DNA from: Candidatus Nomurabacteria bacterium
Lineage (GTDB): Bacteria; Patescibacteriota; Minisyncoccia; Phycocordibacterales; UBA9973
Length of the DNA stretch: 42,810 nucleotides
Direction: 5' to 3'
Assembly: GCA_943357245.1 (NCBI GenBank)
Contig: CALRGH010000004.1
Coordinates: forward strand, 1-42,810
Position numbers and translations under genes: made by a program. Each line of letters opens with the position of its first letter. Within the stretch, counting starts at the first letter, position 1. Positions 25,944 to 32,729 of the stretch are shown piece after piece. The notes below the pieces were generated by a model. It saw only the letters and a list, made by a program, of their open reading frames with translations. It made no database searches and was not told where the DNA came from.

Positions 25944-26064
25944 TGAATAAAGTATAACAAGAATTGGTAGCAAGGAACACAGAACCAGCGCAAACAAAAC
26001 TCGTATTGCTTTTCTTTTGATTTAAACCCTTGCTACATGCTACCAGCACCTTGCTACATGTTTG

Positions 26065-27201
26065 CTAAATGCCCAGGAACTCATTCCGCATATCTTCTTG
26101 GTGTGCGGTGCGGGCGTGTTTGCGTGCGCTCATCAAAATACCGAGACCAATAAAAAGCATAATCATGTGTGAACCACCATAACTCATAAATGGTAGTGTA
26201 ATCCCCGTCACCGGCATGAGCCCGATGTTCATGCCGATATTGATAAGTAAATGACTCGCGATCAAAATGGCAAATCCCATCGCAAAGAGAATTTCAAAGT
26301 TAGTAGAGCCAAATCGTGCCACCCGTAAAATCCGCCACAACACAATCCCGTAGAGAATAAATAAAATAATCGCGCCCACGAATCCCCATTCTTCTGCAAA
26401 TGCAGCAAAAATAAAATCTGTCTCGTATTCCGGCAAAAATTGCAATCGTGACTGTGTACCGAAGCCAATTCCCTTCCCTATAAATTGTCCGGAGCCGACA
26501 GCAATCGTAGATTGATACGCATTGTAGCCGGTGCCACGAATGTCACTCATTGGATGAATAAAGTTTATGATGCGTGCTTTTTGATATGATGCGAACACAA
26601 AAAACCAAAGCGTGCAAAATGCGACAAGTCCAATGCCGAATACCATCAAAATATGTTTTTTTGAAATACCGGAGACAAGCACCATACCAAACCATACAAA
26701 CAAAATAATAATTGCTGACCCAAAGTCTGGTTGCAAAAAAACAAGGGCAAAAGGAATAAATGCATAGAGTGCCGAAACAAAAATATGCCGAGAATGTTTG
26801 ATCTCCACATGCCGTCGGGAAAAATATTTCGCAAGCATGAGCACAACCACAAGCTTCATGACATCAGATGGCTGGAATGAAAATCCGCCAAAATCAAACC
26901 AGCTTTGTGCTCCATTAGATACCTGCCCGAGCACAAACAAAGCTGAGAGTACCAATATGGAAAATAAATACACACCGACAAGTAGCCCGGTACGTTTCCA
27001 AAACCGAATATCAATTTGTGAGACACCAAGAAAAACAATAAAACTTACCAATATCCAAATGAGTTGCTTAGTGAGCAAATTCGCACCACTATCTGAAAAT
27101 GAGTGCATTGTCACCAAACCAAATATAAGAATAGGTGCTATAGCGGCAAGTAATACCCAATCGATATTGCTGAATTGATTTCTGAGTGTCGGCGTTTGCA
27201 T
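26065..27201 (-). CDS. rodA: FtsW/RodA/SpoVE-family protein (RodA-like)
   Basis: FLQPDFGSAIIILFVWFGMV; multi-TM; MPVTGITLPFMSYGGSHM. Confidence 0.88.
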   Translation of the reverse strand: MQTPTLRNQFSNIDWVLLAAIAPILIFGLVTMHSFSDSGANLLTKQLIWILVSFIVFLGVSQIDIRFWKRTGLLVGVYLFSILVLSALFVLGQVSNGAQSWFDFGGFSFQPSDVMKLVVVLMLAKYFSRRHVEIKHSRHIFVSALYAFIPFALVFLQPDFGSAIIILFVWFGMVLVSGISKKHILMVFGIGLVAFCTLWFFVFASYQKARIINFIHPMSDIRGTGYNAYQSTIAVGSGQFIGKGIGFGTQSRLQFLPEYETDFIFAAFAEEWGFVGAIILFILYGIVLWRILRVARFGSTNFEILFAMGFAILIASHLLINIGMNIGLMPVTGITLPFMSYGGSHMIMLFIGLGILMSARKHARTAHQEDMRNEFLGI

Positions 27202-28055: not shown

Positions 28056-28161
28056 TCAAGTGCTTAGTGTTGGCGACAACCTACCCCAGTAGCGAAGCTC
28101 GCGGACTCGCTTGCTACGGGGCATGCTTTTCCTATTGGAGTATTGTTTTCGATTTCATTAC

Positions 28162-28280
28162 TTAGTCTTGGCGACAACCTACTTTTCCCAAAATATTGAG
28201 TATCATCGGCTCATAGAGGCTTAACTGCTTTGTTCGGAATGGAGAAAGGTGTTTCCCTCCTGACATATCACCAAGACTAA
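28162..28280 (-). rRNA. rrf: 5S rRNA
   Basis: Terminal helix TTAGTCTTGG/CCAAGACTAA; internal CCATTCCGAAC and AGCCGATGATACT. Confidence 0.9.
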
Positions 28281-28397
28281 ATAATGAAATCTAGACAAAC
28301 TTGTCCCGTAGGATCCAATTCCTATTGGATTCCTTCGGGATCACCAACACCAAACACTCGAACGTGTTTTGGCGTCATTATTAAAGAAAGAGTAAAT

Positions 28398-28494
28398 GGT
28401 ACAAAAGTTATCAAGTTGAAAGTTATCAAGTTATAAAGAAAATACAAATGCATTTCACTTTATGACTTTACAAACTTTATGGACTTTATAACTG
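28398..28494. repeat. AAGT-unit inverted repeat, copy 1 (23S-5S spacer)
   Basis: caaaagttatcaagttgaaagttatcaagttataaagaaaatacaaatgcatttcactttatgactttacaaactttatggactttataact. Confidence 0.8.
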
Positions 28495-28854
28495 AATTAT
28501 TTAAGACTGTACAACATTGCTTGCGCAATTTGTATACGTCATTTTCACAGTTCCTAATAGGAATCGGGCAATTAGTACGTCTCGGCTGAGTACATTACTG
28601 TACGTACACCTAACGCCTATCAACGTAATCATCTCTTACGGCCCTCAAACGATATCTAATCTTGAAGGTGGCTTCCCTCTTAGATGCTTTCAGAGGTTAT
28701 CCATTCCCGACGTAGCTACCCTGCGGTCTATTTGGCAATAGAGCAGGTACACCAGAGGTCAGTTCACTCCGGTCCTCTCGTACTAGGAGCGAGTCTTCTC
28801 AAATATCAACGCCTGCAGTAGATAGGAGACCAACCTGTCTCACGCAATGGGACA

Positions 28855-28883
28855 GCTTATAGCTTTTAGCTTCTAGCTGCTAG
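28855..28883. repeat. heptamer array GCTNNTA x4 in the 3' part of the intron
   Basis: GCTTATA GCTTTTA GCTTCTA GCTGCTA G. Confidence 0.8.
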
Positions 28884-28977
28884 TTCTAAATCTACATTAG
28901 AACTCTTGGATTACTCCAAGGATCGGACTGTAACATCATCTTTTGCAAGATGGCTAACATTCAGTCTCTACGGGCGA

Positions 28978-29057
28978 GTAAGTTAAAAGTTTGTAAAGTT
29001 ATAAAGTTAAAAGTACGAATACTTTATAAACTTGATAACTTGCTACTTTATAACTTC
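28978..29057. repeat. AAGT-unit inverted repeat, copy 2 (intron P6)
   Basis: gtaagttaaaagtttgtaaagttataaagttaaaagtacgaatactttataaacttgataacttgctactttataacttc. Confidence 0.8.
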
Positions 29058-29269
29058 TTTTCCCTCGGTATTGTCCTTCATTTGCATGAATAGGATTTCA
29101 CCGAAATTAGTTAGCTGTACACACAATATTGCTACTGTGTGCCGCCGTGTGTGCACATACTGTGCACGTGGTTGTTCATCAGACTGATTCTTGTTTTACA
29201 CAAGAATCACATAACAGATTTTTCTTTTTAATAAAAGAAATAAAACTTCGATGGTTCAAACGGGTACAG

Positions 29270-29360
29270 AAGTCAAAAGTTCATCAAGTTATAAAGTTAT
29301 AAAGAAAATACAAATTGCATCTTACTTTACAAACTTTACAAACTTTCTACTTTATAACTC
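29270..29360. repeat. AAGT-unit inverted repeat, copy 3 (5' domain of the intron)
   Basis: agtcaaaagttcatcaagttataaagttataaagaaaatacaaattgcatcttactttacaaactttacaaactttctactttataact. Confidence 0.8.
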
Positions 29361-30027
29361 CTATACGGTTTGAACCCAGCTCGCGTACCTTTTTAAATGG
29401 CGAACAGCCATACCTTTGGGACCTTCTCCAGCCCCAGGATAAGGTGAGCCGACATCGAGGTGCCGAACTCCGCCGTCGATATGAACTCTTAGGCGGAACT
29501 AGCCTGTTATCCCCGGAGTAGCTTCTATCCGTTAATCTTCGACCGCATCTAATGCGAATCATCGGTTCACTAGGTTCTGCTTTCGCACCTGCTCGAGATG
29601 TACCTCTTACAGTCAAGCCAGCTTGTGCCCTTACACTATCGGCACGATTTCCATTCGCGCCTAGCTGACCTTAATAAACTCCTCCGTTACTTTTTGGGAG
29701 GATACCGCCCCAGTCAAACTACCTACCAGATACTGTTTCTGTACGTTTTTGCCGTACGGATTAGAACATGCCTTCAAAAAGAATGGTATTTCACTGACGA
29801 GTATTACAAAACCAAGATCTTGCACATAACCTCTCCCATCTATTCTACGCAGTGTAAAAACATGCTCAATATCAAGCTGTAGTAAAGCTTCCGGGGTCTT
29901 TTCGTCTATCTGCAGGTAACCGGCATCTTCACCGGTACTGTATTTTCACCGAGCTGGTCCTCGAGACAGTTCTCCAGTCATTACACCATTCGTGCGCGTC
30001 GGAACTTACCCGACAAGGTACTTCGCT

Positions 30028-30327
30028 CTTCTGTACCTAAACAAGAAGGACTCTATCTTCACCCTCTGAAGTTATAAAGTGGAAAGTTATAAAGTTTATA
30101 AAGTAGATGCATTTTGCAGTTACTTTCAACTTGATAACTTTACGAACTTTTGACTTAGTTTGGGTGCATGGCGCTGGTCTCTCGATAGCCATGTTTGGAC
30201 TCTTACTATATTTCTATAATAAAAGGTAGCTTTTGGTTTGATGTAATTTCACTATTTTAGTCAACAATTTATCTTTTTCTATAATCGGTCCTAGTCCTTC
30301 TGGAATCTTCGTAAAGAAAATTCCAGA
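30028..30327 (-). other. 300-nt insertion in 23S rRNA at about E. coli 1931; intron or intervening sequence, class unresolved
   Basis: Canonical GGUCCUAAGGU|AGCGAA is split by ~300 nt; insertion ends in G and has an S-like GAAGAUAGAGUCC, but P4-P6 were not found. Confidence 0.75.
30068..30156. repeat. AAGT-unit inverted repeat, copy 4 (second 23S insertion)
   Basis: aagttataaagtggaaagttataaagtttataaagtagatgcattttgcagttactttcaacttgataactttacgaacttttgactt. Confidence 0.8.
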
Positions 30328-30362
<35 letters not shown>

Positions 30363-31203
30363 TAGGGCTTGTATTAACCAGCTTGATATAATCGCACCAT
30401 CAATAATTAACCTTCTAGCATTGGTCAGGTGTCACCCCCTATACATACTCTTACGAGTTCGCAGGGAGCTGTGTTTTTGATAAACAGTTGCCAGAGATAC
30501 TTTCGCTGCGGCCATTTTAATAAATTAAAATGGCAAGCCTTATCCCGAAGTTACGGCTGCTTTTTTGCCGAGTTCCTTGAGGACCACTCACTCGTTCGCC
30601 TTGGTCTACTCGACCTGATCACCTGTGTCGGTTTGCGGTACGGATTCACATATATTAAGCTTAGAAACTTTTCTAGGAAGCGTGCTTTGTAAAATTACCA
30701 GTGGCGAACCACCAACTTTTCGCTCTGCTTGCATGTTGTCTATTACGACCAGCATCCGGATTTTCCTGGACACCACACTCACTCACGAACTCCAATCCAA
30801 TAAGGAGCTCTACATACTACCCTCCGTCATCTCATCGCATATATATGAAGTCATGGAATATTAACCATGTGTCCATCAGGTGCGGCTTTCGCCATCCCCT
30901 TAGGACCGACTAACCCTGAGCTGATTATCATAGCTCAGGAAACCTTGATCTTTCGGCGGAGGGGGCTCTCACCCCTCTTGCGGTTACTTGTGCCAACATT
31001 CTTACTTCGACACGCTCCACGGTGGGTTACCCCTTCCGCTTCAACGCAGAGTCGAATACTCTCCTACCGCTGCTCACATCGCGATGGACACGAAAATTTT
31101 TTCATGCGCATTGCGATGTGAACAGCCCTCAATTTCGGTACTACGTTTTAGCCCCGATTATTTGCGGTGCGAAATCTCTTGATGAGTGAGCTGTTACGCT
31201 TTC

Positions 31204-31235
<32 letters not shown>

Positions 31236-31808
31236 TCATTGTCGAAGAAATATCACCTCCTTGATTTGCACTTAACGTAGATTTTGGGACCTTAATTTGA
31301 GATCTGGGCTGTTTCCCTTTTGACGAGTGGAGCTTCGCCCCCACCGTCTGACTGCTATGTTATAACCTCTGGTATTCGGAGTTTGATAGATGTCGCGAGA
31401 TTGCTCCCTGTCGAAATCTTCCAGTGCTCTACCCCCAAAGGGATCACATAACGCTAGTCCTAAAACTATTTCGGAGAGAACCAGCTATTACCAAGTTCGA
31501 TAAGCTTTTCACTCCAACCCACAAGTCATCCGGAGACGTTGAACGATCTATCGGTTCGGTCCTCCATCACTCTTTCGAGCAACTTCAACCTGCTCATGGG
31601 TAGCTCACTTGGCTTCGGGTCTGATGAATACTACTTGTCGCGCTATTAACACTTGGTTTCCCTTCGGCTCCAGTCGTTTACAGACCTTAGCCTTGCAGTA
31701 TGCATCAACTCGTTGGCTCATTCTTCAATAGGCACGCAGTACAGGTCGCAAGCGACCTGATCTACTCCTTGTAAACATATGGTTTCAGATCTATTTCACT
31801 CCCTTCTC

Positions 31809-31853
<45 letters not shown>

Positions 31854-32729
31854 TTCTACAGATATTTAGCCTTGCCGGTTAGTTCCGGCAGATTCCTCCA
31901 AGCTATTCGTGTCTTGAAGTACTCAAGAATGACAACAAAAAAGAAAAATATATTTCGCGTACCGGGCTATCACCGTCTGTGGCTGTGCGTTCCAGCACAT
32001 TCTGCTATATATTTTTTTTGTAACTTTTCTAGTTAATACTACGTTGTCACCTTACAACCCCGAGCATCACTCGCACATCACAAAATAAATTATGATGCGT
32101 GAATGAAGCTCGGTTTGGGCTTCTTCCTTTTCGCTCGCCGCTACTTGGGAAATACATGTTTGTTTCTGTTCCTCCGGGTACTGAAATGTTTTACTTCCCC
32201 GGGTGCACCCTTTTTCAAATTCATGAAAAAGTTATTGAGGTTTACTCAATAGGGTTTCCCCATTCGGATATCTTCGGATCGAAGGTTATTAGGCACCTCC
32301 CCGAAACTTGTCGCAGCCTATCACGTCCTTCATCGCTCTGTAGAACCAAGGCATCCACCATACGCTCTTAATTTCCTATTAGGAAATGTAAAAACGACAT
32401 TCGTAAATCTGTTTACGGATTTACGCATCGTTCCTGTACACCGCTGTACAGTCTTTAATAATTCTTTGTTGTTTCGTTGCGTCATATCGCAACAAAACAA
32501 TTACCTGTGACTATTGCAAAGAGACCCCTTTTGGTAACTTTACAATAATCGATTTACCCTCCTGCATTTTTCCTGTAAAAATGTAGGAGGATTTACTCTT
32601 TCTTTAATTGACAATGTTCTGGAATTTCTGAAAACAAAAACCGCCGATTTGGCGGAAAAGAAAACACAAACGTGTTGTTTTTCCGCTTATGTTTTGGTTG
32701 GTGTTATTGGCATATTTCAGGTAGGGAGA

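Follow-up and report, generated by a model that had tools for sequence, protein, structure and literature searches.

AAGT-unit palindromes in and beside a 23S rRNA gene very likely belong to a dispersed family of IVP-coding elements

What are the four long palindromes that lie in and next to one 23S rRNA gene, and to what kind of element do they belong? The window is an entire contig (C4, 42,810 bp); the genome to which it belongs (G000) measures 564 kb in 33 contigs. The original prediction described four palindromes whose arms are built of 7–9 nt AAGT units, and all four were found at the positions claimed. The rRNA genes, the palindromes (W1 to W4), and the group I introns are located as follows.

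28166–28275, reverse strand: 5S rRNA gene (Rfam RF00001)
28402–28494: W1, ORF-less AAGT palindrome in the 23S–5S spacer, from folding and repeat comparison; identical in the sister genome G001
28553–32381, reverse strand: 23S rRNA gene (Rfam RF02541, 2290 bits)
28852–29372, reverse strand: probable group I intron near an E. coli ~2593-like position (RF00028, E=1.8e-7); ends approximate, by eye
28979–29058: W2, AAGT palindrome in the helix that we read as P6 of the ~L2593 group I intron, from folding and the Rfam alignment; not in G001
29269–29361: W3, AAGT palindrome in the 5′ part of the ~L2593 group I intron, from folding; not in G001
30028–30327, reverse strand: probable group I intron at a 1931-type site, between GGUCCUAAGGU and AGCGAAG (RF00028 at 30027–30255, E=0.0013)
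30067–30157: W4, AAGT palindrome in this second group I intron (L1931-type site), in inverse orientation to W1 and W3

In the sense of the rRNA, the predicted folding of each palindrome is better than that of dinucleotide-shuffled versions (z = −3.75, −3.15, −5.91, and −3.50), with only 0–1 of 200 shuffles per palindrome scoring as well. Matches of the palindromes to let-7/mir entries in Rfam are below threshold and meaningless. A stretch of 30 nt is common to W1 and W3 at 97% identity, and W2 matches W4 in inverse orientation over 38 nt at 92%. These between-copy repeats indicate a common origin, and they bear out the proposal that the copies are homologous.

One copy had been placed in the 23S–5S spacer, two in a group I intron, and one in a second 23S insertion. 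The first two placements stand, but the insertion that carries W4 (~30028–30327) also matches a group I intron, so that three copies rather than two are probably intronic. Both group I matches are under the Rfam gathering score, and their strand, site, and core elements fit. The putative catalytic core of the ~2593 intron corresponds to 28904–29212 (Rfam RF00028), whereas its ends and E. coli numbering were read by eye. The second intron appears in the LSU alignment as a 303-nt insertion, at what we take to be the classical 1931-type insertion site.

In the Rfam group I alignment, W2 makes up the loop that closes the helix after P5. By our own reading of the helix name, this is P6 and the counterpart of Nostoc P6b, and the parallel drawn originally with the Nostoc intron is therefore anatomically close. 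Another side loop of the same intron (28923–28945) differs by ~44 nt between G000 and G001. The side hairpins look hypervariable within an otherwise constant intron.

An inverted-repeat search revealed that W1 sits exactly between two segments that are complementary to the 5′ flank of the 23S gene. The segments of the probable pre-23S stem are listed below.

28380–28397: outer pre-23S stem, 3′ segment (inverted repeat I16, 100%); pairs with 32591–32608 and abuts W1
28494–28513: inner pre-23S stem, 3′ segment (inverted repeat I13, 95%); pairs with 32445–32464 and abuts W1 on its other side
32445–32464: inner pre-23S stem, 5′ segment; complement of 28494–28513
32591–32608: outer pre-23S stem, 5′ segment; complement of 28380–28397

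Because of this placement, W1 would interrupt a probable pre-23S processing stem. Judged from complementarity, its host site is likely the trailer side of that stem. All four window copies probably sit in RNA that is removed, which agrees with the earlier suggestion that they occupy RNA that is spliced out or trimmed. A 22-nt segment (28063–28084) is a 95% copy of one end of the 5S gene region (28161–28182), ~100 bp away.

Variation between relatives had been anticipated, and it is seen in G001, a genome of the same genus. There W2 and W3 are missing and short unrelated hairpins are found instead, in an intron that is otherwise nearly identical. The inner ~52 nt of W4 are inverted between the two genomes (score 39 inverted, 20.5 direct). 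Seven intergenic copies are common to G000 and G001, all but one of them 95%–100% identical, and one copy is present in G001 only. Since most copies are common to the sisters at this level of identity, movement is rare, and the family is polymorphic but slow-moving. Copies that are polymorphic between G000 and G001 showed neither a target-site duplication nor a clean insertion junction; the intron tips of G001 carry other hairpins in place of the copies, with no clean empty site. An assembly artefact is unlikely, since the sister assembly has most copies at the same places.

Tandem TTGCTAC/ATGCTAC heptamers were observed at 26030–26075 of the window and at C9:20650–20700 of G000. At the G001 counterpart of the C9 site, an AAGT palindrome replaces the heptamers, so that a single site holds different arm families in the two genomes.

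The original prediction also called for further copies in the genome. A blastn search with W3 together with a pattern search yielded 11 more two-armed ORF-less copies outside the window (n=15 for G000), as well as one further site (C1:60642–61060) whose arms are ~340 bp apart. The pattern AAGTTN2–4AAGTTN2–4AAGT matches G000 36 times, versus once for the reversed control. A typical arm consists of four units of 7, 8, or 9 nt; in the 15 copies there are 24 units of 7 nt, 36 of 8 nt, and 33 of 9 nt, the commonest being AAGTTATA, AAGTTTGTA, AAGTTATC, AAGTTGA, and AAGTTCATA. Predicted pairing in these copies reaches 86% at AAGT-core positions and 61% at spacer positions. The order of unit lengths, compared by eye, is unlike between the two arms (often 8-8-7-8 versus 7-9-9-8). 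Loops are variable among copies, and two of them contain a nested GC-rich hairpin.

Because the units are short, tandem, and degenerate, it could be proposed that replication slippage in AT-rich loops has expanded simple sequences independently at each site, giving convergent arrays with no common element. Slippage certainly alters unit number, as in the IVS of Coxiella, where the heptamers number two or three (PMC4990558). However, the arms occur as inverse pairs, other families of the order use the same unit vocabulary, and reversed patterns have next to no matches in most genomes. The flanks and loop sequences shared between copies refute the pure form of this hypothesis, which we regard as extremely unlikely.

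Most copies occupy gaps between co-directional genes, a few nucleotides (~10 nt) from stop or start codons as judged from ORF context. Sites include rpsJ/rplC, rplC/rplD, rpsL/rpsG, atpD/atpC, yebC/ruvC, def/fmt, a position near rpsH, and one directly before rplT, where the names of neighbouring genes were read off translations with no family search. The rRNA setting emphasized originally thus describes the window copies, but the family is not limited to rRNA and resides mostly in operon gaps. A location ~10 nt or less from stop and start codons, in ribosomal-protein, ATP-synthase, and other operons, could also be expected of host regulatory or processing hairpins (RNase III sites, attenuators) that are selected in operons and pre-rRNA and are not mobile DNA, and the conservation of shared copies between sister genomes fits this explanation. 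It is nevertheless quite unlikely given the presence/absence differences and the inversion between sisters, the patchy distribution among relatives, and the fact that AAGT arms also bracket an IVP gene. Regulation by a copy after its insertion is possible.

The IVP gene lies at the C1 site with widely spaced arms. This site consists of an AAGT-unit arm, an ORF for a 114-aa 23S_rRNA_IVP protein, and an inverse ACTT-unit arm; with four-unit AAGT/ACTT arms on each side of the ORF, complementary ends are present. The protein (beginning MKITRFEEIIAWQKAKELT, 114 aa; C1:60690–60998) belongs to PF05635 (23S_rRNA_IVP; 113 bits, cut-off 33.8), matches PDB 2GSC (1.4e-10), and is small and basic (pI 9.3). 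The first arm begins where the neighbouring gene ends, at its stop codon, and at the matching end of this gene in G011, G006, and G003 the IVP element is absent. IVP is the only ORF of the C1 parent, which encodes no recognisable nuclease, transposase, or reverse transcriptase. The IVP/S23p ORF was reportedly described in 1993 in 23S intervening sequences, and the family is nowadays annotated in many genomes. The 2GSC structure has been described as a homopentamer of four-helix bundles, and the function of the family has been described as unknown (PMC4990558, PMC3936711).

Arms and IVP ORF form one unit, and ORF-less relatives of this unit are dispersed in the genome. The palindromes had been called a non-coding element. 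ORF-less copies are indeed real, but AAGT arms also bracket the 23S_rRNA_IVP gene, in an arrangement that recurs across bacteria. The four palindromes are best explained as MITE-like members, without the ORF, of a dispersed family of IVP-coding elements, and we consider this explanation very likely to be correct.

The nearest known kind of element is the IVS element of 23S rRNA. IVSs with an S23p/23S_rRNA_IVP ORF, as in Leptospira and Coxiella, resemble the present family in their protein, in having an ORF between complementary ends, and in their location in or near 23S rRNA. In published descriptions IVSs figure as insertions in rRNA, and not as a family that is spread over the genome and includes ORF-less derivatives. 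Here, in contrast, the ORF-bearing full-length copy is intergenic and outside rRNA, only ORF-less copies lie in or beside the 23S gene, the arms are made of 7–9 nt AAGT units, and copies occur genome-wide. In the Coxiella IVS, tandem GACAGAT heptamers are located just upstream of the ORF (PMC4990558).

The ORF-less copies resemble MITEs in being short, palindromic, dispersed, intergenic, and apparently derived from a longer ORF-bearing parent, which is present in G000. They differ in that the parent has IVP as its sole ORF and no transposase, no target-site duplication was found, and each end is a degenerate tandem array in place of a fixed terminal repeat.

REP/REPIN repeats with RAYT genes likewise consist of dispersed intergenic hairpins, which also flank their partner gene. 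If the AAGT palindromes were repeats of this type, the RAYT (Y1_Tnp) transposases of the genome could have moved them. G000 has two Y1_Tnp genes, and across genomes there is a correlation, with Y1_Tnp detected in 23 of 25 array-rich genomes compared with 182 of 297 overall (p=4e-4). Y1_Tnp genes carry other palindromes, however: AAGT arms flank 0 of 18 genes inspected, most of which have short near-perfect palindromes of their own, such as ACCCAGGAGGCCTTGCCTCCTGGGT. Moreover, G113 and G177, with 38 and 37 arrays, lack a detectable Y1_Tnp. The partner gene of the AAGT arms is IVP, unlike that of REP/REPIN repeats, and mobilisation by RAYT is very unlikely. The RAYT-like genes of G000 (218 aa; C6:17966–18208 and C2:26959–27192) have their own near-perfect palindromes (ACCCAGGAGGCCTTGCCTCCTGGGT and CCTGTGTGAGGCCTTGCCTCACACAGG). 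Palindromes of this kind flank most other Y1_Tnp genes inspected and constitute a repeat system separate from the AAGT family.

The association of AAGT arms with IVP extends beyond G000. An order-wide set of 297 genomes includes 30, spread over many families, that encode the subfamily closest to the C1 IVP (~100 bits or more). At least four AAGT-up/ACTT-down units were found at 24 of 25 distinct short-form genes of this subfamily, but at only 12 of 113 other IVPs and 3 of 33 other IVPs of the order. AAGTT arrays average 13.2 per genome in the 30 genomes with the subfamily, 3.3 in the 74 with other IVPs only, and 0.5 in the 193 with no IVP match. The difference between the 30 subfamily genomes and all others has a Mann–Whitney p of 7e-13, with genomes treated as independent and kinship uncorrected. 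The C1-IVP subfamily is coupled to AAGT arms. Without this subfamily, the correlation between arm similarity and IVP similarity is close to zero (Mantel r=0.02), and arms track IVPs only among close relatives; a general coupling of arm units to IVP phylogeny is unsupported beyond that range. Five genomes (G001, G007, G081, G117, and G140) are array-rich without encoding the subfamily, indicating that ORF-less copies persist, or perhaps move, without a subfamily IVP.

A resident reverse transcriptase was rejected as a requirement, since none was detected in the array-rich genomes G150, G113, G177, G136, and G268. G000 has a reverse transcriptase at C2:23109–23702 (PF00078, E=7e-23, 368-aa frame), which possibly belongs to a diversity-generating retroelement. 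The Avd protein of such retroelements is a reported PF05635 homologue (PMC10053308), but the AAGT/IVP element has no reverse transcriptase, and several array-rich genomes have no detectable one.

Inverted arms of tandem units are the general architecture around IVP genes. The two other IVP genes of G000 also have inverse short tandem-unit arms, with other units (e.g., TAGTAAATAG or TTAGCTTTTAGTGGTTAGC), and nearly all IVP genes inspected in relatives of G000 are bracketed in this way, with differing units. A scan by protein motif alone covered 84,980 species and gave 80 loci, distributed over many phyla, whose flanks mostly follow the same plan (for example, GGTTAGT units upstream and ACTAACC downstream). 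When the upstream flank was matched locally to the reverse complement of the downstream flank for 111 usable IVP genes, the mean score was 16.5; random loci gave a mean of 8.3, and mismatched IVP flank pairs one of 8.5. Of these genes, 65 score higher than 99% of the random control, and the other 46 have no strong inverted flank match, some being plainly degenerate. The tandem period in IVP arms is mostly 7, then 8. In the 23S gene of G000, a one-sided TAGC-unit array in the ~2593 intron (28858–28905, TATAGCTTTTAGCTTCTAGCTGCTAG) resembles the arms of the IVP gene at C5:28704, and may be what is left of a second arm family.

IVP genes on cyanobacterial plasmids follow the same plan with heptamer arms. 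Three such plasmid elements (L283, L284, and L285) lie within cas operons, twice between cas6 and cas4 and once between cas10 and cmr3. IVP genes were reported earlier in cas loci (PMC3936711), and their insertion in plasmid cas operons offers a simple reading of that report. The arrangement suggests that these elements are passengers and not CRISPR parts.

Degenerate tandem units of ~7 nt are also typical of the Nostoc tRNA-Leu P6b, STRR, and TAACTGA repeats (PMC4476775, PMC4679880). Nostoc P6b is a stem whose two arms consist of complementary units, and it occupies the same intron helix as W2; TAACTGA repeats likewise occur in ribosomal-protein operons. The unit sequences and lengths of these three repeat families differ from those described here; the AAGT-based units of 7–9 nt do not match the Class I (TDNGATT) or Class II (NNTGAGT) units of Nostoc P6b. 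We know of no protein partner for any of the three families. A link between these repeats and IVP elements may be considered a lead, since heptamer arms do flank IVP genes of cyanobacteria.

How might such an element spread? Because every window copy is in transcribed RNA, the arms probably work as RNA, folded into a long irregular hairpin with paired AAGT cores. The IVP, a small basic four-helix bundle, may bind the arms of its own subfamily; specific binding seems about as likely as not. IVP could then help the element, in its ORF-less form too, to spread in trans, although a direct role in mobility is slightly more doubtful than probable. The chemistry would be supplied by the host, because the element itself offers no recognisable enzyme for it (nuclease, transposase, or reverse transcriptase). 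Copies would be kept where the RNA tolerates or removes the hairpin, as in operon gaps at stop and start codons, side loops of introns, and the pre-23S processing stem.

A broader reading can be offered tentatively, and we hold it to be somewhat less probable than not. IVP (PF05635) genes throughout bacteria would be the coding part of a widespread class of transposase-less mobile elements, with the IVP of each lineage recognising its own short-unit hairpin arms and acting in trans to spread copies that lack the ORF. The heptamer repeats without a known parent (Coxiella IVS, STRR, TAACTGA, and Nostoc P6b) would be footprints of such elements, and the IVPs of cas operons would be passengers. 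No published link of IVP genes to tandem-unit arms was found in a search that took in few preprints and no subscription journals.

The bracketing of IVP genes by inverse arms, the single unit type of one subfamily across many families, and the dispersal of ORF-less copies lead to a testable hypothesis for the IVP family, namely that it belongs to a mobile element whose factor is not an enzyme and probably binds nucleic acids. This could explain how rRNA acquires IVSs, how hairpins are swapped in intron side loops, and where several heptamer repeat families come from. If mobility driven by IVP were proven, it would represent a new class of element.
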